Shown here: one piece after another, positions 7,609-49,432 of the stretch
Layout of the letters: every line of letters begins with the position of its first letter
Numbering within the stretch: the first letter of the stretch is position 1
NCBI RefSeq assembly: GCF_003003795.1
Contig: NZ_PVWK01000011.1
Location: forward strand, 1-50,416
Source: Stenomitos frigidus ULC18
Lineage (GTDB): Bacteria; Cyanobacteriota; Cyanobacteriia; Leptolyngbyales; Leptolyngbyaceae
DNA: 50,416 bases
Direction of reading: 5' to 3'
The notes under the pieces: generated by a model
Told to the model about the DNA's origin: nothing
Databases searched by the model: none
Seen by the model: the letters and a program-made list of their open reading frames with translations, nothing else
Program-made: the position numbers and the translations under genes

Positions 7609-7641
7609 AGGTTAGGCAAAAAGTTTGAGGAACTTGTGAGG
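7609..7641 (-). promoter_or_regulatory. Tandem-box promoter of nifJ operon (site 1)
   Basis: Read on the minus strand, the boxes are CCTCACA-AGTT-CCTCAAA (7641-7624). The -10 hexamer TAACCT (7614-7609) starts 12 bases after the second CCTCA. The start codon of nifJ is about 29 bases further. This is one of eleven matching sites in the window. The architecture equals a pho box (7+4+7 bp placed where the -35 would be), so an OmpR/PhoB-type activator is inferred. Confidence 0.75.
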
Positions 7642-7693
7642 GTAGCGCGATCGCTCCAAACCTTAAGGCGCAAGTCTCTGAATTCACTCATTA

Positions 7694-7829
7694 GAGTTGT
7701 TGGGATATAACGATAAAAATCGCTGAAATGCCCTTGCAGACTGAGTTTCAAGGATTTTGACTAAAAATCGCTGAAATGCTTATTGGGATTGGGTTTCAAG
7801 GATTTTTCGGCTTATTACCCAACAACTCT
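7694..7829. mobile_element. 136-bp MITE-like element
   Basis: Terminal inverted repeats AGAGTTGTTGGG...CCCAACAACTCT are perfect over 12 bp and continue imperfectly. Two internal direct copies of about 48 bp are each built on AAAAATCGCTGAAATGC and TTTCAAGGATTTT. ATT flanks both sides (7691-7693 and 7830-7832), a possible 3-bp target duplication. There is no coding capacity. It lies between the nifJ promoter and the 3' end of the upstream gene, whose stop codon includes its last bases. Confidence 0.65.
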
Positions 7830-8403
7830 ATTGATTTGAGGAAAGTTGCTGAGATTCTTTGCATGCTTTACCTTCCCACACAGCATGCAGTTCAGTGAAT
7901 TTACCTAAAGCTGTTAGACCCTGAGGAAACATTGACAACGTTTTCCTACTCAGACCATACTCCTGTATTTTTTGATAGAGTGGTCTTGTTGTTTCTACAA
8001 TATTTCCTACCTGTGTCATACATTGTGTAAATGCTGATTTCTGAGTGCTAATCTGAGTGCTAAGAGCCTTCGCAGTCTTATCGACAGATGTAAGCTTGTT
8101 TCTCAACTCTTGAGTTTCTTTGCTAGAGTTCTCTAGCCTAGTCTTTAAACTTTTAATCTCTTGGTTAGCACTCTCAATTTGGGCACTATCTTTACTGATT
8201 TGATTTTGGATATTTTGAAGACTATTCTTAGCTTTTGAAAGTTCCTCCTGAAGAGCTACTTTCTCTGTCTTCTCAGTTTGGTATCGATGCTCTTGGATGA
8301 AGTATATCGAGCCGATACCGATAGGTAATAAACATACAATAATCAAGATCCAAGGATTAACACTCAAACTTCTCTTTAAATTCGGATAAAAATTGCTATT
8401 CAT
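7828..8403 (-). CDS. Membrane-anchored coiled-coil protein, unknown function
   Basis: I do not recognise this 191 aa protein. It has one N-terminal membrane helix (about residues 18-36, NPWILIIVCLLPIGIGSIYF), then a long heptad-patterned coiled coil (about 40-125). A C-terminal domain of about 60 residues has two cysteines (near residues 128 and 181). It would face the periplasm if the helix is an uncleaved anchor. The stop codon TAG is formed across the edge of the MITE at 7694-7829, so the original C-terminus may have been cut. The ATG overlaps a 36-codon ORF upstream, and a site-2 promoter lies 158 bp upstream. Confidence 0.7.
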   Translation of the reverse strand: MNSNFYPNLKRSLSVNPWILIIVCLLPIGIGSIYFIQEHRYQTEKTEKVALQEELSKAKNSLQNIQNQISKDSAQIESANQEIKSLKTRLENSSKETQELRNKLTSVDKTAKALSTQISTQKSAFTQCMTQVGNIVETTRPLYQKIQEYGLSRKTLSMFPQGLTALGKFTELHAVWEGKACKESQQLSSNQ

Positions 8404-8506
8404 GAGACGAACCCTCTATTAAGTAATCATCTATTGCTACTAATTGATCAACTTTATTTTGTTTCTTGAGGAACTGTGTTTCACTCAGACCTTCATTCAC
8501 AGGCAT
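8396..8506 (-). CDS. Possible 36-aa leader ORF
   Basis: This short ORF begins MPVNEGLSETQFLKK and ends 3 bases into the start region of the coiled-coil gene, overlapping it by 8 bp. It is the only sizeable reading frame between the tandem-box promoter at 8561-8593 and that gene. The same frame is open some codons upstream without a start, so it may instead be the tail of a decayed gene. Nothing about function can be said. Confidence 0.35.
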   Translation of the reverse strand: MPVNEGLSETQFLKKQNKVDQLVAIDDYLIEGSSHE

Positions 8507-8560
8507 GAGCCAGTAATGGTCTAAGACAACGCCAATTCATAGGTCTGGAAGCTAGTTTTC

Positions 8561-8593
8561 AGTGTAGATCTGAATTGTGAGGAGTCTGTGAGG
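8561..8593 (-). promoter_or_regulatory. Tandem-box promoter (site 2)
   Basis: On the minus strand the boxes are CCTCACA-GACT-CCTCACA (8593-8576), and TACACT (8566-8561) sits at the common -10 position. This is the most perfect heptamer duplication of the set. It points to the 36-aa ORF and the coiled-coil gene at 8403. Confidence 0.65.
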
Positions 8594-8614
8594 AAGATTG
8601 ATTCTTTTTAAACC

Positions 8615-9253: not shown

Positions 9254-9264
9254 CGTTGTAAGAT

Positions 9265-15897: not shown

Positions 15898-15930
15898 ACG
15901 ATAGAACTAAACTGTGAGGAACTTATGAGG
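15898..15930 (-). promoter_or_regulatory. Tandem-box promoter of the hoxW-hyp operon (site 3)
   Basis: On the minus strand the boxes are CCTCATA-AGTT-CCTCACA (15930-15913), and TATCGT (15903-15898) starts 12 bases after the second CCTCA. The first gene starts at 15865. It is the third operon of the hydrogenase system with the same promoter type. Confidence 0.75.
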
Positions 15931-19299: not shown

Positions 19300-20751
19300 C
19301 TAATCCCGCCAAGTTTCGTTGAGCAGAGTACCATCTGCGCCAACGAGTTGAACATGGAGCGGCATTTGCCCCGCAGCGTGGGTGGAACAGCTTAGGCAAG
19401 GGTCAAAGGCCCGAATGCCAGCTTCCACGCGATTCAGCATCCCTTCTGGAATATCGGCACCGTGGATGAAGTGACGCGCAATTTGAGCGACCGTGCGGTT
19501 CATGGCCAGATTGTTTTGCCCGGTGGCGATGATTAAATTCACCTTTTTCATTAACCCGTTTTCGTCTACTTGATAGTGATGAAATAAAGTACCGCGTGGG
19601 GCTTCGCTGACTCCAACGCCTGACCGTTGATTGATACCTGCATCGGCTCTTAGGTGAGTCGAGAATAGGTCTGGATCATCCATTGTTTGTTCAATTTTCT
19701 CGATCGCCCCCAAAATCTCAATCAAGCGGGCGTAGTGGTAAAAGAAGGATGCGGTGACGGTGCCATTGCCGCGATCGCGAAATTCTCGCAATTCCTGATC
19801 AGCGAGGGGTGTACCAATCTGGGTACAGACATTCAGCCGTGCCAGGGGGCCAACGCGATAGATACCGCTGTCTAATCGGCAATGATCATTCTGGTCGGGA
19901 TAGCCCAACGGTTTGTAATAAGGGGATTTTAAGTAGGAATCAGGTTCAACCGCTTCGCCAATGAATTCCTGATAGCGGCTAGGGTCGAGGCGATCGGCCA
20001 CAATATTCCCAGCACTATCAACAAAGCGCAGGTAGCCGTCGTAATGCTCCCACAGTCCGTCAGGGGTCACCAAGCCCATAAACAGGGAAGGAAAGTTGCC
20101 AAAGGTCTGGGCTTCCCGTTCGTGGGTCTGGAGCACTTGCTTAAATTGACCCAGCGCATTCAGGGCAGTGGTGCGGGCTTCAGGAAGGCGATCGCGGATG
20201 TGATTGCGTCCCTCCTCAGACAAGGGCGATCGCACCCCGCCGGGAACTGCCCAAGAGGGATGAATTTTGCGTCCGCCCAATTGTTCAATGATTTCCTGTC
20301 CAAATTGACGCAGACGGATGCCGCCCCGTGCGAGTTCGGGCGCTGCCGCCATCAGTCCAAAGACATTGCGTGTTTGCGGATCGCTATCCATGCCCAGCAA
20401 TAGATCGGGGGCACTGAGATGGAAAAAACTGAGGGCATGGGACTGGATGATCTGCGCCAGGTTCATTAAGCGCCGTAACTTGACGGCTGCGGGGGGAATG
20501 GTGACCGCCAGAATGAGATCGCCTGCTTTTGCCGATGCCAGTAAGTGACTCACCGGACAAATGCCGCAAATCCGGGCTGTAATTCCCGGCATTTCCCACA
20601 GCGGTCGCCCCTCGCAAAATTTCTCAAACCCGCGAAATTCTGTGACATGGAAGCGGGCATCCGTCACCTGGCCAGAATCATCCAGGTAAATCGTAATTTT
20701 GGCGTGTCCTTCAATCCGTGTTACCGGATCAATCACAATTCGCTGAGACAT
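19300..20751 (-). CDS. hoxH: HoxH, large subunit of bidirectional [NiFe] hydrogenase
   Basis: HoxH carries the Ni-Fe active site. At 483 aa it has the L1 motif [10 protein letters not shown] (C62, C65) and the L2 motif DPCLSCSTH (C452, C455, H458). A 25-residue C-terminal tail after H458 is expected to be removed by HoxW, so it is a precursor. It is the last gene of the hox operon. Downstream, the convergent repeat-protein gene ends at 19232. Expected partners are HoxY as hydrogenase small subunit and HoxEFU as diaphorase. All four Ni-binding cysteines are present, so the enzyme looks functional. Confidence 0.97.
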
Positions 20752-20757
20752 CGTTTT

Positions 20758-20832
20758 GGGGGTGATTGGTCGTTAATCATTGGTCGTTAGTCATTGGTCG
20801 TTGCTCATTGGTCGTTAGTCATTAGTCGTTGC
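20758..20832. repeat. Tandem ATTGGTCGTTAGTC-type repeat in the hox operon
   Basis: About six imperfect copies of a 12-14 bp unit (CATTGGTCGTTAGT and variants with GCTC) fill the gap between the CBS-CP12 gene and hoxH. This is the long-tandem-repeat type common in cyanobacterial intergenic DNA. It places hoxH about 80 bp from its upstream neighbour and might affect its expression relative to hoxY. Confidence 0.8.
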
Positions 20833-21459
20833 TCATCCACTGCAAAAGTTATCAAGCATTCGCGATCGCATTGTTTCAGGAAATTCCTCACAGTATTCTT
20901 CAAACGCAGTCTTTAGCAGCTTTTTTGCTTGCTGATGGGCTGCCTCAGATTGTATTTCATCGACCGCATTCCAGGCCGCTAAACATGCCTGTGACGTGAC
21001 TCCAGCTTCCGCGCAGATCGATCGGGCTTGCCGTGTAGCGGTCTGGATATCTTGTTCCCAGACAACGGACTGAGGTTGTTCGATCAAGGTGCGCTGGGCC
21101 AGAATGTCAGCGAGCGAAATAATGCCCAGCAATGTGCCCTGAATCACGGGTGCTCTCACCAGACCATGATCGGCAAACAAGCGTGCAATGTATTCCAGAC
21201 CCAGGTCGGGATTAACGGTGATGCAAGGTTTGGTCATGATTTCATGGACTCGCATTTGGTTTGGATCTTTGCCAAAGGCAATCACTTTGTAGACAATATC
21301 GGTTTCGGTAATGATGCCGTAAGCATCCTGCTCGTGGCGTCGGTCTACGATCAACCCCCGCCAACCCCGTTCTTGCATCAGTTTGATTGCCTCAGCTACC
21401 GTTGCCGAGCTACGAATCGTGGCAACGTCTTTGGTCATAATGTCAGATGCTTTGATCAT
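20833..21459 (-). CDS. CBS-domain protein fused to a CP12-like domain
   Basis: At 208 aa from ATG 21459, preceded by TAGGAGG 6 nt upstream; the frame opens earlier (21483), but that would contain this ribosome site. Two CBS motifs lie at about residues 5-60 and 70-125 (SDIMTKDV, HEIMTKPCITV). From about 137 there is a CP12-like tail with AWNAVDEIQSEAAH and a cysteine pair ICAEAGVTSQAC. The C-terminal CP12 cysteine pair is altered (EEYC... and a Cys near the end). CP12 bridges GAPDH and PRK under oxidising conditions, while CBS pairs bind adenylates. Within the hox operon it may link energy charge to hydrogenase or carbon metabolism (inference). Confidence 0.85.
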   Translation of the reverse strand: MIKASDIMTKDVATIRSSATVAEAIKLMQERGWRGLIVDRRHEQDAYGIITETDIVYKVIAFGKDPNQMRVHEIMTKPCITVNPDLGLEYIARLFADHGLVRAPVIQGTLLGIISLADILAQRTLIEQPQSVVWEQDIQTATRQARSICAEAGVTSQACLAAWNAVDEIQSEAAHQQAKKLLKTAFEEYCEEFPETMRSRMLDNFCSG

Positions 21460-21479
21460 CGGGAGCCTCCTAGGGATTA

Positions 21480-22178
21480 TCAATTACGTCGCAATAAACG
21501 CGGTTTCAACAACCAAATGAGAGCAACGCCTGTAATTGCACCAACGACAGCCCCCGTTGTCAGCCCGGTTGCGGCTCCAAGCAATACAGTCTCAAGGTTG
21601 AATTGATCGGTATGCGTCATCCCGACCATCATGAATGCAACCACTAGACCCAACGCCCAAGCCAAAGCATTTGCCACAATCCACAAAAAAGCTCGGTGGA
21701 TGTGAGCCTTAAGCACAGTCCATTGGGCAAATCCTAATACTCCTCCCACCCAGACACCCAGGAAAAATACACCCTGGAGCAAGGCTCTTGTTTTCATCGC
21801 GGTCGTCAGCGTTGGATCGAGTCCAATCGAAAATATCATCAGCGCACTGACTTTTAAGCCAATCAGCCAAGCGACCATGACGGCGATCGCCGTGACGATA
21901 ACCCAGGCATTGATACGTTTCACATAACGGCGCAGAACTAGCCATTGAGCCACGCCCAATACAATTCCTTCCAACAGCCCAACGAGATGGAAAACGGTCG
22001 CTGCGTGCTCTATTCCGATCGAATTCGTGATGGCACTCGCGACGAAGCCAATCCCTAAACCGATGAGTTGGGCGATCGCCATAATCCCCACCCACCATTC
22101 CCATAACGTCCAGCTTTTTTTCAGGCTTAACGACTGGCTCGATGGGTGGGGTTGCTTTTCAGTCGATTGTCTGGGCAT
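21480..22178 (-). CDS. Polytopic membrane protein of the hox operon
   Basis: At 232 aa from ATG 22178, preceded by TAAGGAG 6 nt upstream; an earlier ATG at 22196 lies inside hoxY and lacks a site. There are about six membrane helices after a 30-residue polar N-terminus. AQW-VLR/VLK motifs occur twice (GVAQWLVLRR, GFAQWTVLKA), indicating an internal duplication as in a common cyanobacterial family of unknown function. It lies between hoxY and the CBS-CP12 gene in one operon. A membrane tether or regulator for the hydrogenase is possible but not shown. Confidence 0.75.
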   Translation of the reverse strand: MPRQSTEKQPHPSSQSLSLKKSWTLWEWWVGIMAIAQLIGLGIGFVASAITNSIGIEHAATVFHLVGLLEGIVLGVAQWLVLRRYVKRINAWVIVTAIAVMVAWLIGLKVSALMIFSIGLDPTLTTAMKTRALLQGVFFLGVWVGGVLGFAQWTVLKAHIHRAFLWIVANALAWALGLVVAFMMVGMTHTDQFNLETVLLGAATGLTTGAVVGAITGVALIWLLKPRLLRRN

Positions 22179-22188
22179 CGTTTTCTCC

Positions 22189-22731
22189 TTAACCAAATTT
22201 GATTTGCTGCCCTTCTAAATGGGGCATTTCACCCCTGAGGAGGGGTTCTAGAGCCGCCCGAATGCGATCGGCGGGTGGCGGGCAACCGGGTAAATAAACA
22301 TCCACTGGGACTACTGCATGAACGGGTGTAACTTGCTTTAGCAAAGGGGGAACAATCCCCGGCTCCCTGGGAATTTGACCGTGAATATCAACGGCTTCGA
22401 TATAGCATCGTTGCAGCACAGGTTCGGCACTGCCTAAGGGGTTGCGAAGAGCGGTCACGTTGCCCGTCACCGCACAATCGCCAAAGGAAATTAAAATCCG
22501 CGATCGCGCCCGCACGTTGTAAATCATCTCCAGGTGATCTTCGTTGGCGATCGCCCCTTCCACCAACACCACATCCACACCTTCTGGATACGCTTTCACA
22601 TCCATAAAGGGACTGTAGACGAAATCGACCTGGGCTGCCAAATCAAACAGCCATTCGTCCAAATCCAGAAAGGACATATGGCAACCAGAACAGCCACCCA
22701 GCCAGACCGTTGCTAATTTCACACGCGCCAT
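22189..22731 (-). CDS. hoxY: HoxY, hydrogenase small subunit
   Basis: HoxY carries the proximal [4Fe-4S] cluster and forms the hydrogenase module with HoxH. At 180 aa it has WLGGCSGCHMSF (C14, C17), FGDCAVTGN and LPGCPPPADRI as cluster ligands. As in all Hox enzymes it lacks the additional C-terminal cluster region of uptake hydrogenases. The start is supported by GGAGG 7 nt upstream. Upstream is a 190-bp gap with a palindromic element, so hoxY is separated from hoxU by the 60-aa gene. Confidence 0.96.
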   Translation of the reverse strand: MARVKLATVWLGGCSGCHMSFLDLDEWLFDLAAQVDFVYSPFMDVKAYPEGVDVVLVEGAIANEDHLEMIYNVRARSRILISFGDCAVTGNVTALRNPLGSAEPVLQRCYIEAVDIHGQIPREPGIVPPLLKQVTPVHAVVPVDVYLPGCPPPADRIRAALEPLLRGEMPHLEGQQIKFG

Positions 22732-22804
22732 CGTTTCCTCCAGCGAACCTTGCTCAACGAATGTTCAGACCAATTTGAAGAGTCCTCAGTTGAAATCGGT
22801 TAGA

Positions 22805-22912
22805 ACTTACGCACTGAAAGCCGCAAAACCCGATCCCCCCTAGCCCTCCTTAAAAAGGGAGGAACTTTGAAAGCCCCCTTTTTAAGGGCGTTGGGGGATC
22901 TTCTGCGTAAGT
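22805..22912. repeat. Palindromic MITE-like repeat between hoxY and the 60-aa gene
   Basis: The ends ACTTACGCA and TGCGTAAGT are inverted repeats. The interior is a long hairpin around CTTAAAAAGGGAGG and CCCCCTTTTTAAGGG, flanked by GATCCCCCC and GGGGGATC. This is a familiar cyanobacterial intergenic element. In the hox transcript it could fold and affect processing or polarity. Confidence 0.7.
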
Positions 22913-22919
22913 CCCACCA

Positions 22920-23102
22920 CTATCCCCACCAAGGAAATCGAGAAACCTGAAGAAAAAATGTATCCAAAACTTCCTTCGTTTGACCCATGATTGCAATCGC
23001 TGGTTGCGTCAACAAAGCACCTTCTGCGACCAAGAGCAGTAATGCTAGAACAAACCACAAAAGAATCCACAGATAGGTTTCAGGAACATGAGGGCGTAAC
23101 AT
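22920..23102 (-). CDS. 60-aa single-helix membrane protein in the hox operon
   Basis: It is read from ATG 23102 (MLRPHVPETYLW), preceded by an excellent AAAGGAGGT 6 nt upstream. One hydrophobic helix (about residues 9-30) is followed by a short amphipathic tail ending FPWWG. It lies 13 bp after hoxU in the same direction. I recognise no family. HoxEFUYH itself has no membrane anchor, so a small anchor or assembly factor encoded here would be informative, but that is inference. The frame is open upstream to 23219 only by overlapping hoxU in another frame. Confidence 0.7.
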   Translation of the reverse strand: MLRPHVPETYLWILLWFVLALLLLVAEGALLTQPAIAIMGQTKEVLDTFFLQVSRFPWWG

Positions 23103-23115
23103 AAAAATACCTCCT

Positions 23116-23832
23116 TTAAAGTTGCCATTGTTGCTTCTGACGAGCCGTCGCAATAAATTCGATGCGGGCGCGATCGTGAACCATTTCGCCAACGCTTGAA
23201 CCTTGATGAAAAATCGCACCCGTGGGACACGCTTCGACGCATTTGCCGCAGGATGTGCAGGTTTGAGAGGTGCCCCAGGGTTGGTTCAGGTCAGTGATCA
23301 CATGAGATTGAGACCCTCGACCCGCCATATCCCAGGTATGTGCCCCTTCCAGTTCATCACAGACGCGAATACAGCGGGTGCAGAGCACACAGCGATTATG
23401 ATCCATGCCAAAGCGATCGTGGGACAGATCGACTTTGCGATCGGGAAATTGATACTCTAACCGGACATGATCCATGCCTACGGCGATCGCCAGATTTTGC
23501 AATTCACAATGCCCGTTAGAAACACAAACAGAACAAACATGATTGCCTTCCGCGAACAGCATTTCAACAATGGTGCGGCGATACTTCTGTAACCGCTCTG
23601 TGTTGGTTTTAATGTCCATGCCCTCTGCCACTTTGGTCACACAGGCTGGTTGCAGTTTACTACTTCCAGCGATTTCCACCAGACAAAGCCGACAGGCTCC
23701 CACGTCCGAAACGCCTTCCAGAGCGCACAATGTTGGGATATGGATACCCGCTTCCTGCGCCGCCTCTAGAACCGTTTCGTCTTCGCGGGCGCTCACCGGT
23801 TGATCATTGATCGTTAACGTTTTGACTCCCAT
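23116..23832 (-). CDS. hoxU: HoxU, diaphorase iron-sulfur subunit
   Basis: HoxU passes electrons between HoxF and HoxY. At 238 aa it has an N-terminal [2Fe-2S] domain ([15 protein letters not shown] with a later Cys), a Cys/His [4Fe-4S] site ([12 protein letters not shown]), and ferredoxin-type motifs [11 protein letters not shown] and [18 protein letters not shown] lies 5 nt before the ATG. It lies 24 bp after the radical SAM gene and 13 bp before the 60-aa gene. Confidence 0.96.
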
Positions 23833-23856
23833 AAAGGCTCCCCAAGCATTCGTCGG

Positions 23857-24483
23857 CTATTCACTCAAACTCATCTGGCCACGATAGCCCGTCACAATTC
23901 GCCCTCCATCTTTGAGAATATGAATTTCCATCTGATCGCTCGCCCAGGTGATGCTGTCTTTGAAAGCAGGATTGAATACATGCACCCGCTGATTGCGAGA
24001 AGAGACAGGCGAATCGGGCTCATGAATGGCGAGTGACTCGATATAAGGCCCATCAATCAGGATATCGAGTTCTTTCAATAGCGCTTGAGCACCAGCAGGG
24101 GCATACTCTGCCTGTAACTGCTCCAACGTAAATCCGGTAAAAGACAGCACATTTAACCCAGCAGCTTTGACCTTGCGAGCCAAAGTTGCCAGTGCGGGAG
24201 CTTGCCAAAAGGGTTCGCCACCAGAGAATGTGACTCCCGTGTTATGAGGATTGCTCAGAATTTTTTGTACCAGAGTATCGACTGCCATCAGTTGATTCAT
24301 TTCAAACGTCCAAGATGCCGGATTGAAGCATCCTGGACACTCCCGCAGACAGCCTTGTACCCAGATCACGGCGCGACAACCAGGCCCATTCACCTCAGAT
24401 TCATCCACATAGCCCATGATATTGAGGTATCCAGGCGGAATTTCCAGGAGTGACAAGTATGGGTTATTTGCAGGATGAATCAT
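23857..24483 (-). CDS. Radical SAM protein, NrdG/activase-like
   Basis: At 208 aa it has the radical SAM motif GCLRECPGC (CxxxCxxC, about residues 44-52) and the SAM-binding TFSGGEPFWQ. It is of the short single-cluster type related to anaerobic ribonucleotide reductase and formate-lyase activases. There is no glycyl-radical enzyme in the window. AAAGGAG lies 7 nt upstream of the ATG. The position inside the hox operon, between hoxF and hoxU, points to an anaerobic job. Activating an NrdD encoded elsewhere is one option, a hydrogenase-related modification another; neither can be decided here. Confidence 0.85.
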   Translation of the reverse strand: MIHPANNPYLSLLEIPPGYLNIMGYVDESEVNGPGCRAVIWVQGCLRECPGCFNPASWTFEMNQLMAVDTLVQKILSNPHNTGVTFSGGEPFWQAPALATLARKVKAAGLNVLSFTGFTLEQLQAEYAPAGAQALLKELDILIDGPYIESLAIHEPDSPVSSRNQRVHVFNPAFKDSITWASDQMEIHILKDGGRIVTGYRGQMSLSE

Positions 24484-24574
24484 TTTTCTTCTCCTTTAGG
24501 CTTGTGTAAGGTGGTGTCAGCTAATCTCAACCTTTCAGCTTAGCGAGCATTGCTATTACTCTGTTTTTGATCTC

Positions 24575-25072
24575 TCATCTCGTCCTTTGCTTCATCATGG
24601 CTGGCATACCTTCTGTGACGAATTTGCTGACTTCACGAGCATGTTCACGGATCACAGCGGTGATCTTGGGATCTTGGGATGTTTCAGTCACAGCAATGCC
24701 TTTCGATGTGAGTTGAAATTGCCGTTGATAAGAGCCTGCATTGCGAATCAGAGGCGATAAACTCGGAGCCATCTGAACCATTGGAATGACTTGCTTTTTA
24801 TTCATTCGTTGATACATTGAAGGAACATGAGACTGAATCAATGCAGTCACCTTAGGATTATCAGATTCTGTAGTCGCCCGGATGCCGCCTGGAATGTCTT
24901 GAACAGTCCGATGAATCTGCTGATGATTCGCGAACAGTTGATGAATGGTACCCATGCCATTACCACCCATCATGCCGCCATCCATCATGGGATTCCTGGC
25001 GAAGGATGGAGTTACGACTAAACCCCCAATTACAAGGAAAAACAAGAAAATCCACATGGCTTTATATCGCAT
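24575..25072 (-). CDS. Secreted Met/His-rich protein of the hox operon, unknown function
   Basis: At 165 aa it has a clear signal peptide (about residues 1-25, ending SFA-RN) and then a methionine/glycine-rich stretch (MMDGGMMGGNGMG). Two copies of a related module follow (DIPGGIRATTESDNPKVTALIQSH and a C-terminal TETSQDPKITAVIREH version), each with conserved His. Similar two-module secreted proteins occur in other bacteria as hypothetical proteins, in my memory. The His/Met content suggests metal (copper or heme) binding, which is inference. GGGAG lies upstream of the ATG. It sits between hoxF and the radical SAM gene. Confidence 0.7.
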   Translation of the reverse strand: MRYKAMWIFLFFLVIGGLVVTPSFARNPMMDGGMMGGNGMGTIHQLFANHQQIHRTVQDIPGGIRATTESDNPKVTALIQSHVPSMYQRMNKKQVIPMVQMAPSLSPLIRNAGSYQRQFQLTSKGIAVTETSQDPKITAVIREHAREVSKFVTEGMPAMMKQRTR

Positions 25073-25201
25073 ATCAAACTCCCTAGCACTTCAACTCTAC
25101 CGACATTGCTTTACGGATTGATTCATTGAGGATGTATCGATCATCGCTAAAATTTTGTGAACCATACATATCCTGCCCTTAGAAAGATTCTTAAACAGTT
25201 T

Positions 25202-26836
25202 TTAAACTGTCGCGTGAGCATTGATTAACTCTAAATATTCCTCTCGAAAATATTGCAGTGTACTTAAAACTGGATTGGGTGCAGATTGACCCAAGCCACA
25301 CAGACTGGTGTGTTTGACCATATCGCAGAGTTCTTCCAGCAACTCCAAATCCGCAGAGGTTGCTTTACGGTCACGAATTTTTGTCAGCAGTTGATGGAGT
25401 TGCACAGTGCCAACTCGGCAAGGAATGCATTTGCCGCACGATTCATCTCGGCAAAACTCCATAAAGTAATGCGCTACATCCACCATGCTGGTGTTCTGAT
25501 CCATCACAATCATGCCGCCAGACCCCATCATGGAACCAAGTTGAGTCAGCGATTCATAGTCTACAGGCGTATCAAAGGCTGAGGCGGGAATGCAGCCGCC
25601 AGAGGGGCCACCGGTTTGCACCGCTTTCGCTGACCCGCCATCGGGTACACCTCCACCCATCACCTCCACAATTTGTCGCAATGATGTTCCCATCGGCACT
25701 TCAATGAGTCCCGTATTGCAAATTTTGCCTGCTAAGGCGAAAACTTTCGTGCCTTTACTTTTCTCAGTGCCAATGCTGGCAAACCAGTCGGCTCCGTTAC
25801 GAAGAATGGGTGCAATGTTAGCAAAGGTTTCGACATTGTTGATCAGCGTTGGAAATCCCCACAAGCCGCGTTCTGCGGGATAGGGAGGACGCGGACTCGG
25901 CACGCCTCGTTTGCCCTCGATCGATGCCATCAAGGCTGTTTCTTCACCACAGACATAGGCTCCGGCCCCAATGCGAATATCAATGCGAAAGTCAAAGGGG
26001 GAATCAAAAATTTGACTCCCCAACAAGCCCAACCGCTGGGCTTGCCGAATTGCCAATTGTAAACGGCTAATCGCGAGGGGATATTCTGCTCGTACATAGA
26101 TGTATCCCTGCGTGGCACCAATCGCGTAGGCAGCGATCGCCATGCCTTCCAGCACCCGATGAGGATCGCTTTCCAGCACACTGCGATCCATAAAGGCACC
26201 TGGATCGCCCTCGTCGGCATTGCAAACGACAAATTTACGTTCTGCAGTTGCCTTTGCCACCGTTGCCCATTTCAATCCGGTGGGATACCCCGCTCCACCC
26301 CGTCCTCGCAAACCACTGCGGGTCACTGCGTGAATGACTTCGGTTGGACTCATTTCACGCAAAACGTGACCAAGTGCCTGATAGCCACTTGCAGCGATGT
26401 AGGCTTCAATTCGTTCCGGATCAATTTTGCCGCTGTTTTCTAACACGATCGCCTGTTGCTGGGTAAAAAACGGCTGGGTGAGATTGCCTTTCTGGAGTGG
26501 CGTTAGTGTATTGACAGATGGTTTCGATTGAAGAGATGCTGCTATCGCAGAGGACTGATCGGGAGTGACTTTTTCATAAAGGATTCCAGGATTATCTGGC
26601 TCTACTAGATCATCTACTTGAACCAGCGGACCCTGGCAGCAAAGACGCAAACACCCTACACCAGAGACCTCTACGGTGTCTGCCAACCCTGCTTCTGTGA
26701 CTGCCTTTTCCAACCCTTCTTTAATGGCTAGAGCATTGGAAGAGAGGCAACCCGCTGCGACACAACAGCGAATCCGCAACGCTTTTTGGGATTGGCGTTC
26801 CTTTTCAGCAATTTCCAGTAATTCAGATAAATCCAT
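25202..26836 (-). CDS. hoxF: HoxF, NAD(P)H-binding diaphorase subunit
   Basis: HoxF holds FMN, the NAD(H) site and a [4Fe-4S] cluster. From ATG 26836 ([14 protein letters not shown]) it is 544 aa; the frame extends to 26908 only inside hoxE. It has an N-terminal thioredoxin-like [2Fe-2S] domain (CCVAAGC...CLRLCC), the NAD site [13 protein letters not shown], the FMN site with DEGDPGAF and [14 protein letters not shown], and the cluster motif [10 protein letters not shown] with a later Cys. It lies 5 bp after the hoxE stop. Confidence 0.96.
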
Positions 26837-26841
26837 ACTCC

Positions 26842-27369
26842 CTACTCCCCTTTTTCCAAGTACTCTTTCAAGCGATCGCACACCAACTCTGGCGTTTGAT
26901 GACCACATACCGTACCGTCAAACACAACCGCAGGGGCAATCCCACAAGCACCCAGGCAGCGGGCGGTGGAGAGGGAGAGTTGATTGTCGGATGTGGTTTC
27001 ACCCGAATGGATATGGGTCGATTGCTCAACCGCTGCCAGTAATGCTGCTGAACCTTTGACATAGCAGGCGGTTCCGGTACACACGACACAGCGATGCAAC
27101 CCTTTCGGTGCCAGCGAAAACAGATGATAGAACGTTGCGACTCCATAGACCCTACTGGGCGGCAGTTTCAGGCTATGGGCAATGTAAAGTAACAGATCGG
27201 TTTCTAGATAGCCGAATAGTTCTTGTGCCTTATGCAGAATTTCAATCAGTGCGTCTTGCTGATACTGATGACGCTTGATTGTGGCATCAAGCATCTTAAA
27301 GCGCTTATCGCCACTGGGATGCTCTGGCACAGCGCCCCTAACATATTTGTTTTGCTGATTGATCACCAT
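26842..27369 (-). CDS. hoxE: HoxE, diaphorase [2Fe-2S] subunit
   Basis: HoxE is NuoE-like and forms the diaphorase with HoxF and HoxU. At 175 aa it has [10 protein letters not shown] and [11 protein letters not shown] as the four-cysteine [2Fe-2S] site. It lies 16 bp after the universal stress protein gene without a strong ribosome site of its own, so the two are very probably co-transcribed from the promoter upstream of usp. Confidence 0.96.
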
Positions 27370-27384
27370 AAGGATGCGGGGGTT

Positions 27385-27918
27385 CTAGGATGCCATTGCG
27401 ACTTGCTTTGCTTCAGCGCGATCGCCTGCGTTCTGATCTTGTCGATGAATCGTCAGTACAGAGCAGGGTGCATGATGCAGCACGTAATTGCTGACGCTGC
27501 CTAAGATCAGCTCATTCAAACCAGAACGACCGTGACGACCCAGCATGATTAAGTCCACGTCCAGTTCACAGGCCAGTTCACAGATGATTCGACCAGGGTT
27601 ACCAAAACTTTGACGAAATGTTGCGTCTACGCCTGCGGTGGTGGCTGCATCAGTGAGCGATTGCAGCAGCTCCGATTCTCTGTCAGCATAGCTTTGCCAA
27701 AGCTCCTGATAGATCTCAACGATGCTTTTGCTGAGTTTGCTTGGATAAGCTTCATAGCCGATCAAGACCGGACTACTTGGACTCGCTTCATCCTCTGGTG
27801 ACAGCACATTGAGCAGCACTAGGCTAGCTGGGATGGGTTTGGCAAGGATCAGTGCCTCATCAAAAACATGCTGCCCCAGTTCAGAGTGATCAATGGCAAC
27901 TAGAATTTTGTGAAACAT
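27385..27918 (-). CDS. Universal stress protein (UspA family), first gene of the hox operon
   Basis: At 177 aa it has the UspA fold start MFHKILVAIDHSELG and the ATP-binding loop GRHGRSGLNELILGSVSNYV, which matches G-2x-G-9x-G-S. It is likely a nucleotide-binding stress protein. GAGGGAG lies upstream of the ATG. The site-4 promoter lies about 30 bp upstream, and the gene is followed after 16 bp by hoxE. Usp genes are classic members of hypoxia and stationary-phase regulons, consistent with the rest of this set. Confidence 0.9.
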   Translation of the reverse strand: MFHKILVAIDHSELGQHVFDEALILAKPIPASLVLLNVLSPEDEASPSSPVLIGYEAYPSKLSKSIVEIYQELWQSYADRESELLQSLTDAATTAGVDATFRQSFGNPGRIICELACELDVDLIMLGRHGRSGLNELILGSVSNYVLHHAPCSVLTIHRQDQNAGDRAEAKQVAMAS

Positions 27919-27949: not shown

Positions 27950-27982
27950 AAGTTAAAAGAAAAAAATGAGGAACTTGTGAGG
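27950..27982 (-). promoter_or_regulatory. Tandem-box promoter of the usp-hox operon (site 4)
   Basis: On the minus strand the boxes are CCTCACA-AGTT-CCTCATT (27982-27965), with -10 TAACTT (27955-27950). After the boxes the bases TTAACTTTAAGGTAGAGCAA closely match those of the nifJ promoter at the same spacing. It is divergent from site 5, with 32 bp between the two box pairs. Confidence 0.8.
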
Positions 27983-28014: not shown

Positions 28015-28047
28015 CCTCACAAGTTCCTCAACTTCTTTCTCTATGTT
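28015..28047 (+). promoter_or_regulatory. Tandem-box promoter of the DUF4327 gene (site 5)
   Basis: Boxes CCTCACA-AGTT-CCTCAAC (28015-28032) are followed by TATGTT (28042-28047) at the common -10 position. The ATG within this hexamer is therefore promoter, not a start codon. It faces away from site 4. Confidence 0.75.
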
Positions 28048-37017: not shown

Positions 37018-37050
37018 ACCCTAGGGAGAAGTTTTGAGGATCTTGTGAAG
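37018..37050 (-). promoter_or_regulatory. Tandem-box promoter (site 6)
   Basis: On the minus strand the boxes are CTTCACA-AGAT-CCTCAAA (37050-37033), with TAGGGT (37023-37018) at the common -10 position. It points to the small ORF at 36997. Confidence 0.6.
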
Positions 37051-40861: not shown

Positions 40862-41066
40862 TTGAGAGCAGTTCCAGCATGGCAATGGTTACATATTACC
40901 GAAACCGCAGAGCCTTGAGACTGACCGATCGCGATGATGGATTGCCCTGCAACTTTAAGGCACAGGTCTGCAATCCTGGTTGACTGACCGATCTTTTTTG
41001 TCGGTTGGGTTGAACCTAGTGAAACCCAACGCTGGTCTCTTGATCGGAAATGATTACCTGAAATAG

Positions 41067-43110: not shown

Positions 43111-44678
43111 AGTCGTTTGCTCCCTACCAGTTGTTGCGAGCCTTCCTGCTGCTTCCACACCGATCGCCCCGTGATCAGTTCCACCACATCCATGCCGTTA
43201 CCAATCACACCGGGCACGCTGGGATAGCCTGCACTGGCTCCAACAAAGAAGAGATTGGGCAATTCGGTCGTATAGCCCAACCGATTCAGCCCTACCTGTT
43301 GCGGAATCAACTTGGCACCATAAATATTGCCTTGGGGTTGCCCCAGGTAATATTCACTGGTGGTTGGTGTACCGAAAACTTTCATGCGAATATAAGCATC
43401 CACGTCGGGAATTAAATCGCGAACACTGGTCATGATTTGTTGGTAGAATTCCCGCTTTTTGGCTTTGTAGGCTTTGAGATCGGTTTTGTGGAGCTGTTCA
43501 AATGGTTCATAGGGGCAGACGGTGGCAATCTCCAGAACGTGATGCCCTGGGGGAGCCATACCCGGTTCGTGGGATTTCATCGTGGGGCAAGAGAGAAAAA
43601 TCCACGGATGACTGAGATCGCCCTGCAACTGTTTTTGATATTCCTGGTTGAGATTGCCCGTTGGATAGTACCAGAGATTCCAGTTGCCGATGCCATAGCG
43701 TTCAGGCTCAAAGCGACGATCTAAGCCCAGGTAAATGTTGAATGCGCTGGCTGAATATTGATAGTCGGTCAGGCGATGATGTTCACGCGGACTTAAGGCA
43801 TCAGAGGGATGCATCAGACCCACGGTGAGCTTAGGATCGAGGTCGCTAATGTAGGCTTTTTTCGCGTGATAAAGATCGCCCTCGGCTGTGATGACATGTT
43901 GCACCTGGAGATCGCACACTTCAATCTGCTCCACTGGTGTTGAAAGCTGCACCACACCACCGCTGGCGGTAATTGCCTCCACAAGAGTGTCCACCAGATG
44001 TTTGAAGTGATGTTTGGGGTAGTATGCGCCTTCGGAATAGTCCCAAACGAGAGACGTGTGGGTCAGGAGGGCGATTTCATTGGGGGGTAGAGCATAATCA
44101 CCGCTTTGCCCCGCCAACAGGTTTTGCAGCTTGGGTGAGAGTCCAACATGGTCATACAGATCTTGCAGTGTCCAATCTCGCTTGGAGAAAAGGTTCCAAT
44201 ACTTAGGTAGCTTCAACCAATCGAACCATTTTTGGTCGTACCAGTGAACGTCCTGTACCAAATGATGCATGCTTTGATGGAGTGCTCGAATCTCATCGCA
44301 GTAGCGATTGATGGCGACATGCTCTTCTGGGAACGTTGCCAGTAAGCGAGTACGCAAGGTTTCCCATCCCAGTGGAATTTTGAAGTCAACCTCAGGCGTA
44401 ATCACGCGATCGATACAATCTGGATCAAGCGAGTTGAATGGAACATTACATTCAAGATAGTTGAGCAATTGATTGATCGTTTGACCAGAACCACATTGCG
44501 AAATGTAATGCACATCGGCACAAAAGCGATACTCGCCGTAATCGAAGGTGTGGCAGCAGCCACCGGGTAAATAGTGTTTTTCTAAAACGGCGACCTCATG
44601 ACCCTGGCGAGCAAGACAGGCAGCGGCAGAAAGTCCGCCTAGCCCTGCGCCCAGAATGACATAATCAAAACTTTTCAT
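43107..44678 (-). CDS. Carotenoid isomerase/retinol saturase-like FAD protein
   Basis: At 523 aa from ATG 44678 (MKSFDYVILGAGLGG), preceded by GGGAG 7 nt upstream. It has an N-terminal FAD-binding GAGLGGLSAAACLARQGHEV (the dinucleotide motif) and a C-terminal NLFFVGASAGYPSVPGVIGNGMD. It belongs to the phytoene-desaturase/CrtISO/RetSat superfamily. The exact substrate (a carotenoid or other polyene) is uncertain. Site 7 lies about 115 bp upstream, so it may be induced with the anaerobic set. A reductive, O2-independent flavin reaction would fit (inference). Confidence 0.85.
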   Translation of the reverse strand: MKSFDYVILGAGLGGLSAAACLARQGHEVAVLEKHYLPGGCCHTFDYGEYRFCADVHYISQCGSGQTINQLLNYLECNVPFNSLDPDCIDRVITPEVDFKIPLGWETLRTRLLATFPEEHVAINRYCDEIRALHQSMHHLVQDVHWYDQKWFDWLKLPKYWNLFSKRDWTLQDLYDHVGLSPKLQNLLAGQSGDYALPPNEIALLTHTSLVWDYSEGAYYPKHHFKHLVDTLVEAITASGGVVQLSTPVEQIEVCDLQVQHVITAEGDLYHAKKAYISDLDPKLTVGLMHPSDALSPREHHRLTDYQYSASAFNIYLGLDRRFEPERYGIGNWNLWYYPTGNLNQEYQKQLQGDLSHPWIFLSCPTMKSHEPGMAPPGHHVLEIATVCPYEPFEQLHKTDLKAYKAKKREFYQQIMTSVRDLIPDVDAYIRMKVFGTPTTSEYYLGQPQGNIYGAKLIPQQVGLNRLGYTTELPNLFFVGASAGYPSVPGVIGNGMDVVELITGRSVWKQQEGSQQLVGSKRL

Positions 44679-44792
44679 TTTGTCTCCCATCGCGATCGGG
44701 TTTCGACGTTGCTAAATCAAGGGATGAATTTGAGGTGGGATGAACGGCATCTTTCCATACTTGCTGCTGTTCAGCACCACCCGCGTTTCTTT

Positions 44793-44825
44793 AGATTAGG
44801 TCAACAAATTGAGGAAGTTGTGAGG
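44793..44825 (-). promoter_or_regulatory. Tandem-box promoter of the flavoprotein gene (site 7)
   Basis: On the minus strand the boxes are CCTCACA-ACTT-CCTCAAT (44825-44808), with TAATCT (44798-44793) at the common -10 position. The leader to ATG 44678 is about 108 nt. It lies just beyond the end of the pyruvate kinase remnant. Confidence 0.7.
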
Positions 44826-44885: not shown

Positions 44886-45725
44886 TCACCAAGAGTGCAG
44901 CGCCCGGAGTTGCGGTGTTTTCTTCAATTGATGCGCCTGCATCCGAGTCAAAACATCATCCAGAATCGTGACAGCTTCGGCAACAAAGGCACGTTTGTTG
45001 AGCATGACGCACTCAGCCCGCTCTGCCATTGCCGCATCCGTCATTTCTGCCCGCGAGGGAATGCCTTTTTTGACCAGACTCTCTAGCACCTGAGTCGCCC
45101 AAATCACGGGAATATGAGCGGCTTCGCAGAGCCAGAGAATTTCTTCCTGCATTTCGACCAACCGTTGATACCCAATCTCGATCGCCAAATCGCCTCTGTC
45201 AATCATCACCGCAAACGGTTGCTGAACCGCCGCTTGCACAATCAACTCTGGTAAATGATTCACAGCCTGAGGCGTTTCAATCTTCGCCATAATGGCAATC
45301 TGGCGGCGTTGATGCATCCGAGCGGCTAACTCCTGCTGGAGTTGTTTCATGTCCTCGGCAGATTGCACAAAGGAATAGCCCACAATATCGGCATGGATAG
45401 CGACAAAATCTAAATCCTGTCAATCCTTGTCCGTCAGTGGGCTGAGTTTCAAATCGGCATCACTCGCGCTTCCAATCGACCCAAAGAAGACAATCCGCAG
45501 GGCATTAAGGCCGCTTGTAAAGGGCGTAAATCCTGTCGTCGGAGCGCCAGGTAATAGGCAAGATTGAGACCACTGAGAAACTCATGGCGCTGGATCTGCG
45601 ATGTTGCTCCGCAACGCTGACGCGATCGCCACTAGTCAAAAATATCCTGCCCTTCCTGAACGATCACCTGCCGCAGTTGTTGTAGGGTATTTAACAACGT
45701 ACAAGGATAGAGAGATCGGACGTGG
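44886..45725 (-). pseudogene. pyk: Decayed pyruvate kinase gene
   Basis: The open 165-codon part (44886-45383) keeps the second half of the barrel: AKIETPQ (Lys, Glu), MIDRGDLAIEIG (Asp), IWATQVLE (Thr) and MLNKRAFV, ending naturally at LHSW as in the long pyruvate-kinase-like family without a C-terminal domain. Upstream, the frame is interrupted by TGA just before QDLDFVAIHADIVG. Beyond it are pieces matching the family's N-terminus (NLAYYLALRRQDLRPLQ, TLLNTLQQLRQ) in shifted frames, with a TAG and a HIP1-type repeat insertion. It is thus inactivated. It is preceded by a divergent tandem-box promoter shared with pfkA. Confidence 0.8.
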
Positions 45726-46029: not shown

Positions 46030-46062
46030 ACTGTAGGTCAAGAATCTGAGGGACTTGTGAAG
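46030..46062 (-). promoter_or_regulatory. Tandem-box promoter towards the pyk relic (site 8)
   Basis: On the minus strand the boxes are CTTCACA-AGTC-CCTCAGA (46062-46045), with TACAGT (46035-46030) at the common -10 position. It is back to back with site 9, 8 bp apart, forming a divergent control region. Confidence 0.65.
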
Positions 46063-46070: not shown

Positions 46071-46103
46071 GCTCACAATTTCCTCAGATTTATCGTCTAC
46101 CCT
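46071..46103 (+). promoter_or_regulatory. Tandem-box promoter of DUF2949-pfkA (site 9)
   Basis: Boxes GCTCACA-ATTT-CCTCAGA (46071-46088) are followed by TACCCT (46098-46103). The bases CTACCCTCAAAG align with CTAACCTCAAGG of the nifJ promoter. The start codon is at 46132, behind GGAGGAG. Confidence 0.7.
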
Positions 46104-47455: not shown

Positions 47456-47488
47456 CTTCACAAATTCCTCATCTTTGGATGAGATGCT
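47456..47488 (+). promoter_or_regulatory. Tandem-box promoter of the zinc-ribbon gene (site 10)
   Basis: Boxes CTTCACA-AATT-CCTCATC (47456-47473) are followed by GATGCT (47483-47488) at the common -10 position, the only one of eleven without TAnnnT. A partial inverted TGTGAGG lies just upstream. The leader to the ATG at 47564 is about 70 nt. Confidence 0.55.
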
Positions 47489-47563: not shown

Positions 47564-47773
47564 ATGAGAGACTGTCCTTGCTGTGGTTATCCGATGGTGC
47601 GCTGTTTTCGCCATCATCAAACTGCTTTTTTCTGCCGCCATTGCTGGCAAGAGATGCCAGATTTAATGCCACAGAATACCAGCGCCTTGCTAAAACAGCG
47701 ATCGCTTGAGCGGTTATTCAACACCGGCTGCTCAAAATTGCCTGTTAACTTCCTGGTAGAGCAAATATTTTAA
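47564..47773 (+). CDS. Small zinc-ribbon protein
   Basis: At 69 aa, CPCC near the start (Cys4, Cys7) and CRHC (Cys24, Cys27) form a four-cysteine zinc ribbon, followed by WQEMPDL. Similar small proteins with CxxC...CPHCRQEMPDL occur in cyanobacteria, in my memory. The role is unknown, possibly nucleic-acid or protein binding. It is separated from pfkA by 164 bp with its own tandem-box promoter. Confidence 0.7.
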   Translation: MRDCPCCGYPMVRCFRHHQTAFFCRHCWQEMPDLMPQNTSALLKQRSLERLFNTGCSKLPVNFLVEQIF

Positions 47774-47834
47774 GAGCCTATCCAAAAACGACGCTTACTT
47801 TCAGCATGACTGCATCCTCTCTTGCGATCAATCA

Positions 47835-47945
47835 CTGAGTAAGTCTAGGTTTTCAACCCTCTGGAAGGCATCTTCTGCTTTCATTCCTTGTTCGATAGCG
47901 ATTTGCAGCAGCGCCACAATGGATGCACGCCTCCCGTTGTCACTA
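47835..47945 (-). pseudogene. Tail fragment of an unidentified protein
   Basis: On the minus strand a frame reads RASIVALLQIAIEQGMKAED and on to LLSD before a stop, coding-like in composition, but with no start codon upstream. It is probably the C-terminal relic of a gene. The rest of 47774-47973 shows nothing else. Confidence 0.3.
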
Positions 47946-47973
47946 GGAGTATGAGGAGTATGGGCGAGCAGGA

Positions 47974-48675
47974 TTAGGAAAGGGAGAAATCTTTCGCAAA
48001 TTGTTGTCGTGTGAGGGGTTGTCTCAAGATCAGCCCTTCGCCACCCAAGGGATGTTTTTCATTCAAAAATTGTCCTTCAACTGAGAGATATACGTTTGCG
48101 GTTGGATCAAGACTAGTGACGGTGTAGAGGATCTGAGCCACTCGATAAATCATTGAGCTACTACCGCCGCCCTGACTAAATTCACGGGACAGGTTAACGT
48201 AGATCCCTTCTGGAGCCATGCGCAAACTCAGTAAGCGAGTGCCTACTGGAATGGCACTACTGCGATCGCCTCCCGTGGGATTGGCAAGAAGATTGATGAT
48301 TCCTTCCATGAGTGCCTGCTCAGAAGACACCGCTGCATTGAGTGCAATCCGGTGAGGCACCAGGCTAATCCGTTGTCCATCGACCTTCAACCAATAACTT
48401 TCTGGTTGCAGATCCCTGGTTTGGGGTCTGTTCAAAGATGCTGATGGCTTTGTGAGTTGAGGACTCACTGCTGCTTGCGATTGTGAAGGAGCTGGCTGTG
48501 GATGTGAAGCCGCAGGCATTTTATCTGTTCTTGTTGGAGCAGCTTGCTGATTTGAAGCGGTTGGCGTTGATGCTTGCCAAGTCCACCAAACGCCTCCTCC
48601 TGCCGCTATTAACAGGAGCAGCTCAACACCAACGATCGCGCTTCGGTGAGTTGAATAAGCATCATGGGTTTTCAT
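47974..48675 (-). CDS. GerMN-domain protein
   Basis: At 233 aa from ATG 48675, with AGGAG 7 nt upstream. One N-terminal membrane helix (about 14-35) is followed by a Pro/Ser/Gln-rich linker (about 38-90). A GerMN domain (about 95-230) follows, with SSEQALMEGIINLLANP, YVNLSREF and LYTVTSLDPTANVYLSVEG. GerMN domains occur in cell-envelope proteins, including cyanobacterial ones unrelated to sporulation. The exact role is unknown. Confidence 0.85.
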   Translation of the reverse strand: MKTHDAYSTHRSAIVGVELLLLIAAGGGVWWTWQASTPTASNQQAAPTRTDKMPAASHPQPAPSQSQAAVSPQLTKPSASLNRPQTRDLQPESYWLKVDGQRISLVPHRIALNAAVSSEQALMEGIINLLANPTGGDRSSAIPVGTRLLSLRMAPEGIYVNLSREFSQGGGSSSMIYRVAQILYTVTSLDPTANVYLSVEGQFLNEKHPLGGEGLILRQPLTRQQFAKDFSLS

Positions 48676-48764
48676 AGACAACTCCTGTTAAGCTGCAGCA
48701 GTTCTCAAACGGCTATAAACAATCTTCAATCTTCGCAATCTTCTTCAGGTAGACGACGTGAATT

Positions 48765-49331
48765 TTAGTGAGCAACTGCTGAACCCATCTCCTCGGCTGC
48801 GCGCTCATGCATCGTTTCTTGCAGGTGTTCATCATGTTGACGTTGCTGCACAACCGTTTCCCGTGCTTTTTGTTGTGCTGTTAGATCGATTTTGGTCACA
48901 TTCCGATGGGATAATTCAGCTTTGGGAAGTGTCAGTGTCAGCACGCCATCTTTAAATTCAGATTGAACCTGGTCATGTTTGACAGAGACTGGCAGGGGCA
49001 CTGTGCGTTGAAACTGACCATACTGCAATTCCGAACGGAAGTAGCCCTTCTCTTCGGTGCATTTCTCTTCCCGATGTTCTCCGGTAATGGAAACGGCGTT
49101 TTCGCTGACCTGAACATCCAGCTCTTTCGCTTCAATGCCAGGTACTACGGCTTTCAAAATCACGTCTTTGTCCGTTTCTTTGAGTTCGATCGCTGGTGCC
49201 CAGAGTGCGTTCTCAAGTTGGGGAAATTGATCGAACTCGCGATCACTATGTATCATTTCATCAAACAGGTGATTCATCTGGCGACGCAGCGTGTCCAGTT
49301 CTTTAAGGGGTTGCCAACGAATGAGCGACAT
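48765..49331 (-). CDS. Small heat-shock protein, Hsp20 family
   Basis: At 188 aa it has an N-terminal region MSLIRWQPLKELDTLRRQM, an alpha-crystallin domain (about 45-140) with VPGIEAKELDVQV, GYFRSELQYGQFQRTVPLP and FKDGVLTLTLPK, and a Gln/Glu-rich tail longer than usual. It is an ATP-independent holdase chaperone. GGGAGG lies upstream of the ATG. Site 11 lies about 70 bp upstream, whereas no CIRCE-like inverted repeat (TTAGCACTC-N9-GAGTGCTAA) is seen. Control by the anaerobic motif rather than heat is therefore suggested. Confidence 0.95.
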   Translation of the reverse strand: MSLIRWQPLKELDTLRRQMNHLFDEMIHSDREFDQFPQLENALWAPAIELKETDKDVILKAVVPGIEAKELDVQVSENAVSITGEHREEKCTEEKGYFRSELQYGQFQRTVPLPVSVKHDQVQSEFKDGVLTLTLPKAELSHRNVTKIDLTAQQKARETVVQQRQHDEHLQETMHERAAEEMGSAVAH

Positions 49332-49399
49332 ACTGTTTTCCTCCCTGAATGCTTGTAAGGTTGTAAATTGATCAGGGCAACCTGTTTGCCCACACTCAT

Positions 49400-49432
49400 A
49401 CGGTAGACAAACAATTTGAGGAACTTGTGAGG
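49400..49432 (-). promoter_or_regulatory. Tandem-box promoter of hsp20 (site 11)
   Basis: On the minus strand the boxes are CCTCACA-AGTT-CCTCAAA (49432-49415), identical to those of nifJ, with TACCGT (49405-49400) at the common -10 position. The leader to ATG 49331 is about 62 nt. The stretch 49433-49679 contains no other feature I can support. Confidence 0.75.

Follow-up and report, generated by a model that had tools for sequence, protein, structure and literature searches.

A direct-repeat promoter box before fermentation and low-oxygen genes of many cyanobacteria, with an RcaC-like protein as its candidate regulator

We analysed a 50,416-nucleotide stretch of Stenomitos frigidus ULC18 (NZ_PVWK01000011.1, positions 1 to 50,416; contig C36 of a 6.98-Mb genome in 167 contigs; hereafter the window), in which a 16-base promoter box, CCTCACAAGTTCCTCA, recurs at eleven sites. 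The same box is found in many other cyanobacteria, where one kind of response regulator co-occurs with it and is in part encoded beside it. We consider it likely that the sites are activator promoters, read by an RcaC-like regulator of the OmpR/PhoB fold that would bind the box and drive fermentation and anoxia genes. The fermentation and hydrogen switch of cyanobacteria has so far been explained mostly through CyAbrB2 and SigE, global factors of Synechocystis, going by the parts of two accounts used here (PMC11368403, PMC13421787). Our literature search, which covered few subscription journals, found, in the titles and abstract openings listed, no description of the box, of the regulon or of an RcaC-type fermentation regulator. 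Now that a box common to many cyanobacteria can be paired with a specific candidate regulator, the fermentation switch is open to direct tests.

Boxes were scored by the number of bases, out of 16, that matched the 16-mer. Ten of the eleven window sites matched at 14–16 bases, four of them exactly, and the eleventh (8593-; sites are named by 5' base and strand) matched at 13. In 100 dinucleotide shuffles of the window the mean number of sites with at least 14 matches was 0.04 and the largest 2, against the 10 observed. The loose pattern of two CCTCA words with 2 mismatches was not enriched in the window (42 observed versus 47.45 expected), so we used the full 16-mer, in which the signal resides; the loose pattern with a spacer one base longer was unremarkable there (56 versus 48.33 expected). 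A -10 hexamer of the form TAnnnT begins 11 bases past the second CCTCA at ten of the eleven sites and GATGCT replaces it in the eleventh, and the flanking sequences differ from site to site. Both the places of the eleven sites and the hexamer spacing had been put forward in the original prediction, and both held on scoring.

The spacing was then assessed in 135 non-redundant exact sites from other cyanobacteria, taken among the matches listed and found without use of the -10 distance. TA was present at +11 in 122 of these sites and a full TAnnnT in 86, and any other TA offset (0–22) was present in at most 40, which bears out the earlier claim that the fixed spacing is independent support for the box. 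Among 10 non-cyanobacterial exact matches, also from the matches listed, TA was at +11 in 2 and TAnnnT in 1. Positions 3 and 4 past the second CCTCA were TT in 113 of the 135 sites, so the repeat has an 11-bp period (CCTCACAAGTT / CCTCAAATTnT). An 11-bp repeat period is that of PhoB-type sites. Placement was assessed in loci L051–L166, without duplicates and sites less than 400 bp from a locus end. One of 101 exact sites (again among the matches listed) lay inside an open reading frame (ORF) of at least 100 amino acids (aa), compared with 71% at random, and 66 of the 101 had the same-strand start of such an ORF within 300 bp downstream, compared with 11% at random. Exact sites of other genomes follow gene starts and are not scattered at random, the outcome that the computable part of the original prediction's own test called for, and reversed controls are nearly absent.

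The exact 16-mer has 11 copies in the S. frigidus genome, 4 of them in the window, and its reversed form has none. In a phylum sample it was present in 34 of 386 genomes, with 0 reversed hits. A scan of 378 genomes of the class for the 16-mer plus TT and TA, allowing at most two mismatches, recovered 680 sites in 124 genomes, and six genomes had one reversed hit each. Scanning named genomes for the exact 16-mer gave at least 116 stretches; among the matches listed, 10 were non-cyanobacterial by title and the rest belonged to Nostoc, Calothrix, Leptolyngbya, Phormidesmis, Acaryochloris, Pleurocapsa, Chamaesiphon and other cyanobacteria.

We surveyed the genes behind 195 non-redundant sites (146 exact; the window and the rest of its genome included), with one ORF taken per site by a fixed rule and proteins below 40 aa ignored. 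The proteins recovered were Usp (25 sites), a zinc ribbon (13), NifJ (10), a phosphatase-like protein (9), a hydrogenase-protease-like protein (8), PflA (8), PpsA (8), Hsp20 (6), PflB (4), an unnamed 118-aa protein (4), HoxE (3), PfkA (3), FeoB (3), a divergent D1 (3) and ADP-forming acetyl-CoA ligase (2), and proteins met just once stand behind many of the sites. In a profile check with one representative each, most of them cut to 120–200 aa beforehand and several scoring below the full-length cut-off, PflA, PflB, PpsA, HoxE, FeoB and the phosphatase were matched. The zinc ribbon fell below the cut-off of its profile, and the hydrogenase protease, named by eye, had no Pfam match. This content supports the regulon for fermentation and anoxia that had been predicted: the box-linked genes appear to form a fermentation and low-oxygen set common to many cyanobacteria, their role in anoxia being suggested by what they encode. 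The box and its candidate regulator also predict a role for DUF4327, DUF4342, DUF2949 and the small zinc ribbon, and offer a way into the study of hydrogen production and of the D1 variant.

The original prediction had further called for an OmpR/PhoB-type regulator whose occurrence follows the motif. The S. frigidus genome has 23 Trans_reg_C hits, among which the candidate (G000:C49:16857-19658, minus strand, 934 aa; hereafter C49) combines REC, Trans_reg_C, HPt, REC, PAS, HisKA and HATPase domains. The contig that encodes it holds three boxes, one of them 66 bp before the regulator start. Relatives sit in 11 motif loci of other cyanobacteria and cluster with C49, apart from the other OmpR-type proteins of S. 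frigidus, in a grouping that left out the weakest of the 23 hits (L189) and took C64 in the wrong frame. Across the regulators scanned, the REC–DNA-binding domain (DBD)–HPt–REC core is followed by a PAS-kinase, a further REC, GGDEF or nothing. Usp and the regulator are divergent with the box between them at L025, L030, L043 and L047. As a side observation, two C49-type regulators (L309:2159-4450 and L307:3122-5557) carry a C-terminal GGDEF instead of the histidine kinase.

A profile of 11 rows (A1), built from the first 228 residues of C49 and its eleven relatives less one partial, was run on the 378 genomes. At E<=1e-105 the motif was present in 69 of the 70 genomes with the regulator, at least 5 of which supplied A1 rows and were hence chosen by motif, compared with 55 of the 308 others. 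Other cut-offs gave 77 of 87 (1e-100), 71 of 74 (1e-103) and 65 of 66 (1e-108), E-value exponents being truncated. In the sole exception, G467, a 15/16 site lies about 1 kb away from the regulator gene. A box lay within about 1.5 kb of the match in 11 of the 30 top A1 loci (about 3.2 kb each), and in 6 of the 25 loci unused for A1, where chance would give about 0.1, given some eight sites per 6 Mb. In genus g1, 17 and 18 sites were counted in the 2 genomes that have the regulator, and none in the 5 that lack it.

Most site-rich genomes of family f23, and G070 of f16, lacked a strong A1 hit, which G616 of f23 has. We examined island stretches from five genomes (G070, G512, G605, G593 and G072), and in the first three a REC-DBD-HPt-REC protein of about 607–616 aa lies beside a CBS-PAS-GAF histidine kinase. 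A three-row profile of this split type (A2; G070, G512, G605) was run on 62 genomes, namely 55 of the 56 sampled f23 genomes (G616 excluded) and 7 picked for having sites. At A2 <=1e-130 there were 20 hits, 17 of them in genomes with at least two sites and 3 in genomes with none, and a site was present in 12 of the 42 remaining genomes. Within the 55 f23 genomes alone, sites were present in 16 of 19 with a strong A2 hit versus 6 of 36 without (p 1.5e-6). Both C49 and the split regulators have PF00072 and PF00486, that is, the REC and Trans_reg_C winged helix of OmpR/PhoB-type proteins. The kinases beside the split regulator have N-terminal CBS domains (L282:8160-12524, L288:1989-5900, L296:1912-5823), a hint of nucleotide or energy sensing.

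The two types have a common recognition helix: AVRTHIK[GC]LR was read in 27 of 27 parsed type-A (fused) loci (30 looked at) and AVRTHIKG[LV]R in 17 of 19 parsed type-B (split) loci (20 looked at). Five of the ten next-best A2 loci could be parsed, with RTHIKR in four and AIRTHVKGLR in one, and the paralogues of S. frigidus itself have RTHIKR (C129b), KAHIKG (C6), RSHIRR (C147) and SSHIKA (C52). A DBD profile search of 20 hand-picked leftover genomes found the exact helix in G551, G541, G418 and G387, also in site-less G424, and variant helices in G118, G596, G584, G450 and G536; parsed hits of G072, G127, G564, G215, G517, G452 and G400 had neither form, and those of G455 were unparsed. By A1, A2 or helix, a regulator is present in 70 of the 77 genomes with at least three sites (56 by A1, 13 by A2 and G551 by helix). 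The nearest paralogue in the same genome, C129b, served as control (378 genomes, 1e-96): the motif was present in 12 of 23 genomes with it versus 112 of 355 others (p 0.06). Ten of those 12 genomes have a type-A or type-B regulator by the thresholds used; of the other two, G539 gave an A1 hit of 1e-102, and G517 lacks both types. The 11 genomes with C129b and no motif have no A1 hit better than 1e-102. Co-occurrence, adjacency and the common helix support the call for a regulator that follows the motif, with some genomes left unexplained.

Several observations weigh against the main reading. A total of 34 of the 124 motif genomes have none by A1 at 1e-105, A2 at 1e-130 or exact helix; 27 of these have one or two sites, most of them not looked at individually, and 7 have at least three (G450, G072, G127, G455, G564, G118 and G596, of which G118, G596 and G450 have variant helices). 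The island stretches of G593 and G072 are without the split regulator, which G593 has on another contig. Conversely, three genomes with a strong split-type hit, G613 (75% complete), G424 and G408, lack any site at up to two mismatches, although the exact helix is present in G424. Upstream of C49, the box at 66 bp is oriented away from the regulator and faces no clear gene. The A1 and A2 thresholds were set after the scores were seen, the genomes are non-independent, and both profiles were built from motif-adjacent proteins. Finally, Usp, Hsp20 and the P-type ATPase would also suit a general dark or stress signal.

We propose that the two 11-bp direct repeats would substitute for a -35 element, with the TAnnnT -10 at fixed distance. 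In the dark, low oxygen or a reduced redox state would be the signal on which the kinase part sends phosphate via REC and HPt to the N-terminal REC. The phosphorylated regulator would then form a tandem dimer, two molecules on two repeats, which would contact or recruit RNA polymerase in place of the -35 and so turn on the fermentation and anoxia genes. Because C49 includes a histidine kinase with a PAS domain, a single chain would unite signal input, phosphorelay and DNA binding in S. frigidus; in the other family, the CBS, PAS, GAF kinase would act from a separate gene beside the regulator. A wider picture, on which we are evenly divided, is that in many cyanobacteria one RcaC-like master regulator governs a regulon dedicated to anaerobic life, that some lines (S. 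frigidus included) absorbed the sensor kinase into a one-protein phosphorelay, and that in some species the same protein also switches photosystem II to a D1 variant from which manganese ligands have been lost.

Several other explanations of the box were considered. In favour of chance or a mobile repeat are the 10 non-cyanobacterial stretches among the at least 116; shuffles, reversed controls, placement, -10 spacing and the flanks that vary between sites together leave this with next to no credibility. An 11-bp-period direct repeat is the target of tandem OmpR-type dimers, and the motif tracks one particular response regulator with its recognition helix; both points make it improbable that an alternative sigma factor (SigE-like, group 3 or extracytoplasmic function) reads the 16-mer as its -35 region, in place of an activator site. 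Such a promoter would likewise be expected to keep a fixed -10 spacing, and in Synechocystis, hox and nifJ are reportedly driven by SigE, in the part of the account used here (PMC11368403). Slightly less remote, and still unlikely, is that the RcaC-like protein is a passenger of the island and another conserved factor reads the box. Whole-island transfer or loss can yield co-occurrence, and a clear regulator is missing from 34 of 124 motif genomes and from 7 of 77 with at least three sites; on the other hand, the S. frigidus regulator is on a contig other than the window, fused and split versions differ in their receiver parts and yet have almost the same helix, and any tracking of the motif by the nearest paralogue is at most weak.

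A serious contender, even if we lean away from it, is compatible with an RcaC-like reader in all but the signal: in place of oxygen, the regulator would respond to darkness, the redox state of the quinones, energy depletion or some other stress. The Usp and Hsp20 targets, pfkA and ppsA, and the CBS domains of the split kinases fit such a signal, and the Pfam lists of the scanned kinases show PAS, GAF and CBS and no oxygen-specific domain. Against it, pyruvate formate-lyase with its activase, pyruvate:ferredoxin oxidoreductase and hydrogenase are all oxygen-sensitive.

Among known systems, RcaC of Fremyella/Tolypothrix chromatic acclimation is similar to the candidate in its REC-DBD-HPt-REC layout, a likeness of domain order. 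The L box has the same geometry as the box described here, two direct 7-mers with a 4-base spacer, and reportedly reads TTGCACA-N4-TTGCACA. The present box differs in sequence (CCTCACA-N4-CCTCAnn) and in its targets, which are fermentation genes rather than the phycobiliprotein genes of RcaC, and the candidate, unlike RcaC, is often fused to a histidine kinase or GGDEF domain. PhoB/SphR is alike in its OmpR-type DBD and in 11-bp direct repeats that replace the -35 about 10 bp before the -10; the box sequence differs, and the targets here are mostly non-phosphate, with one ABC ATPase of S. frigidus PstB-like by eye. As the original prediction maintained, the consensus is unlike the cyanobacterial pho box (CTTAACCT-type repeats), and it is a direct repeat without the GTA-N8-TAC palindrome of NtcA sites. 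The suggested likeness to the mycobacterial DosR regulon stands for function, since DosR governs Usp, Hsp20 and redox genes under low oxygen, and fails for the regulator type and the box, which are NarL/LuxR-type and palindromic in DosR and, for the candidate described here, OmpR-type and a direct repeat.

Phosphorylated RcaC binds the L box and activates transcription, according to the part of the source used (PMC8256508). CyAbrB2, SigE, ChlR and Rre34 of Synechocystis are credited with the control of hox, nifJ or low-oxygen genes in the parts used of two accounts (PMC11368403, PMC13421787), which, in those parts, give no link to this box. A redox-signalling review of July 2026 ties nifJ and hox to CyAbrB2 and SigE in the parts used, and the word RcaC is absent from its main text (PMC13421787).

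Divergent D1 (psbA) proteins stand behind the box at L034, L064 and L086, where QGDH replaces QAEH and MHAPNVHNFPLV replaces MHERNAHNFPLD. These changes presumably fall at E189, E333 and D342, with loss of conserved manganese-ligand residues, and we take the proteins to resemble the D1 called rogue or sentinel. The divergent D1 as a general target was not borne out: a box was upstream at 4 of the 8 best-scoring loci of a divergent-D1 query (two exact, one 15/16 at 520 bp and one 13/16) and at 0 of 22 further D1 loci. Of the 8 best loci, 3 gave a reading of the variant signature; of the 22 further loci, 21 gave the ordinary one. The box also precedes divergent D1 genes at two more loci, L374 and L375.

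Table 1. Boxes of the window with their -10 hexamers, and two of the gene regions that they face.
Feature	5' base	Span	Strand	Faces or contains
Box 16/16 CCTCACAAGTTCCTCA + TAACCT	7641	7609..7641	-	nifJ, ATG at 7580
Box 13/16 + TACACT	8593	8561..8593	-	coiled-coil gene 7828-8403
Box 15/16 + TATCGT	15930	15898..15930	-	DUF4342 gene 15500-15865, then hydrogenase maturation protease 14989-15492
Box 16/16 + TAACTT	27982	27950..27982	-	usp 27385-27918 and hydrogenase-type genes behind
Box 16/16 + TATGTT	28015	28015..28047	+	DUF4327 gene
Box 14/16 + TAGGGT	37050	37018..37050	-	small reading of 30 or 33 aa (ATG 36997 or 37006)
Box 15/16 + TAATCT	44825	44793..44825	-	amine-oxidase-like flavoprotein 43107-44690
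Box 14/16 + TACAGT	46062	46030..46062	-	pyruvate kinase fragment 44886-45383, about 680 bp off
Box 14/16 + TACCCT	46071	46071..46103	+	DUF2949 gene (end 46341) and pfkA (end 47399)
Box 14/16, GATGCT replacing TAnnnT	47456	47456..47488	+	zinc-ribbon-like ORF 47564-47773
Box 16/16 + TACCGT	49432	49400..49432	-	hsp20 48765-49331
nifJ, pyruvate:ferredoxin oxidoreductase		3963..7580	-	
usp and hydrogenase-type gene run		19300..27918	-	NuoF-like 25202-26908, small-subunit-like 22189-22731, NiFe large-subunit-like 19300-20751

Every window site had been said to face a gene or small ORF, which holds up on inspection. Pfam matches were found for NifJ, DUF4342, Usp, DUF4327, the amine-oxidase-like flavoprotein, DUF2949 followed by PfkA, and Hsp20, and both the 30-aa reading (ATG 36997) and the zinc-ribbon-like ORF exist. 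The latter encodes 69 aa, contains CPCC...FCRHCWQEMP and is by eye like the zinc ribbons behind the motif elsewhere. The coiled-coil gene has sub-threshold coiled-coil matches only, and the distant pyruvate kinase fragment has a partial PK match. The DUF4327 gene probably starts farther downstream than listed, since its listed ATG (28043) overlaps the -10.

Sites of the same genome outside the window face the genes of a second Usp and a second DUF4327 protein, and those of an ABC ATPase and a cation P-type ATPase, and one further site faces a small protein, phosphatase-like by eye, without a Pfam match. A second nifJ-like start, at L015 (G000:C156), is preceded by a box and leader closely similar to those of the window nifJ, and the reading frame found there has just 57 aa. 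An exact box without TA at the expected position (L013, G000:C65:3375) precedes a gene pdxH-like by eye, and a pdxH-like gene adjoins the weakest box of the window. Finally, positions 37600-40885 of the window encode an NB-ARC/TPR protein and, beside it, a Peptidase_C14 protein of the caspase fold; together they look like a module for cell death or defence.

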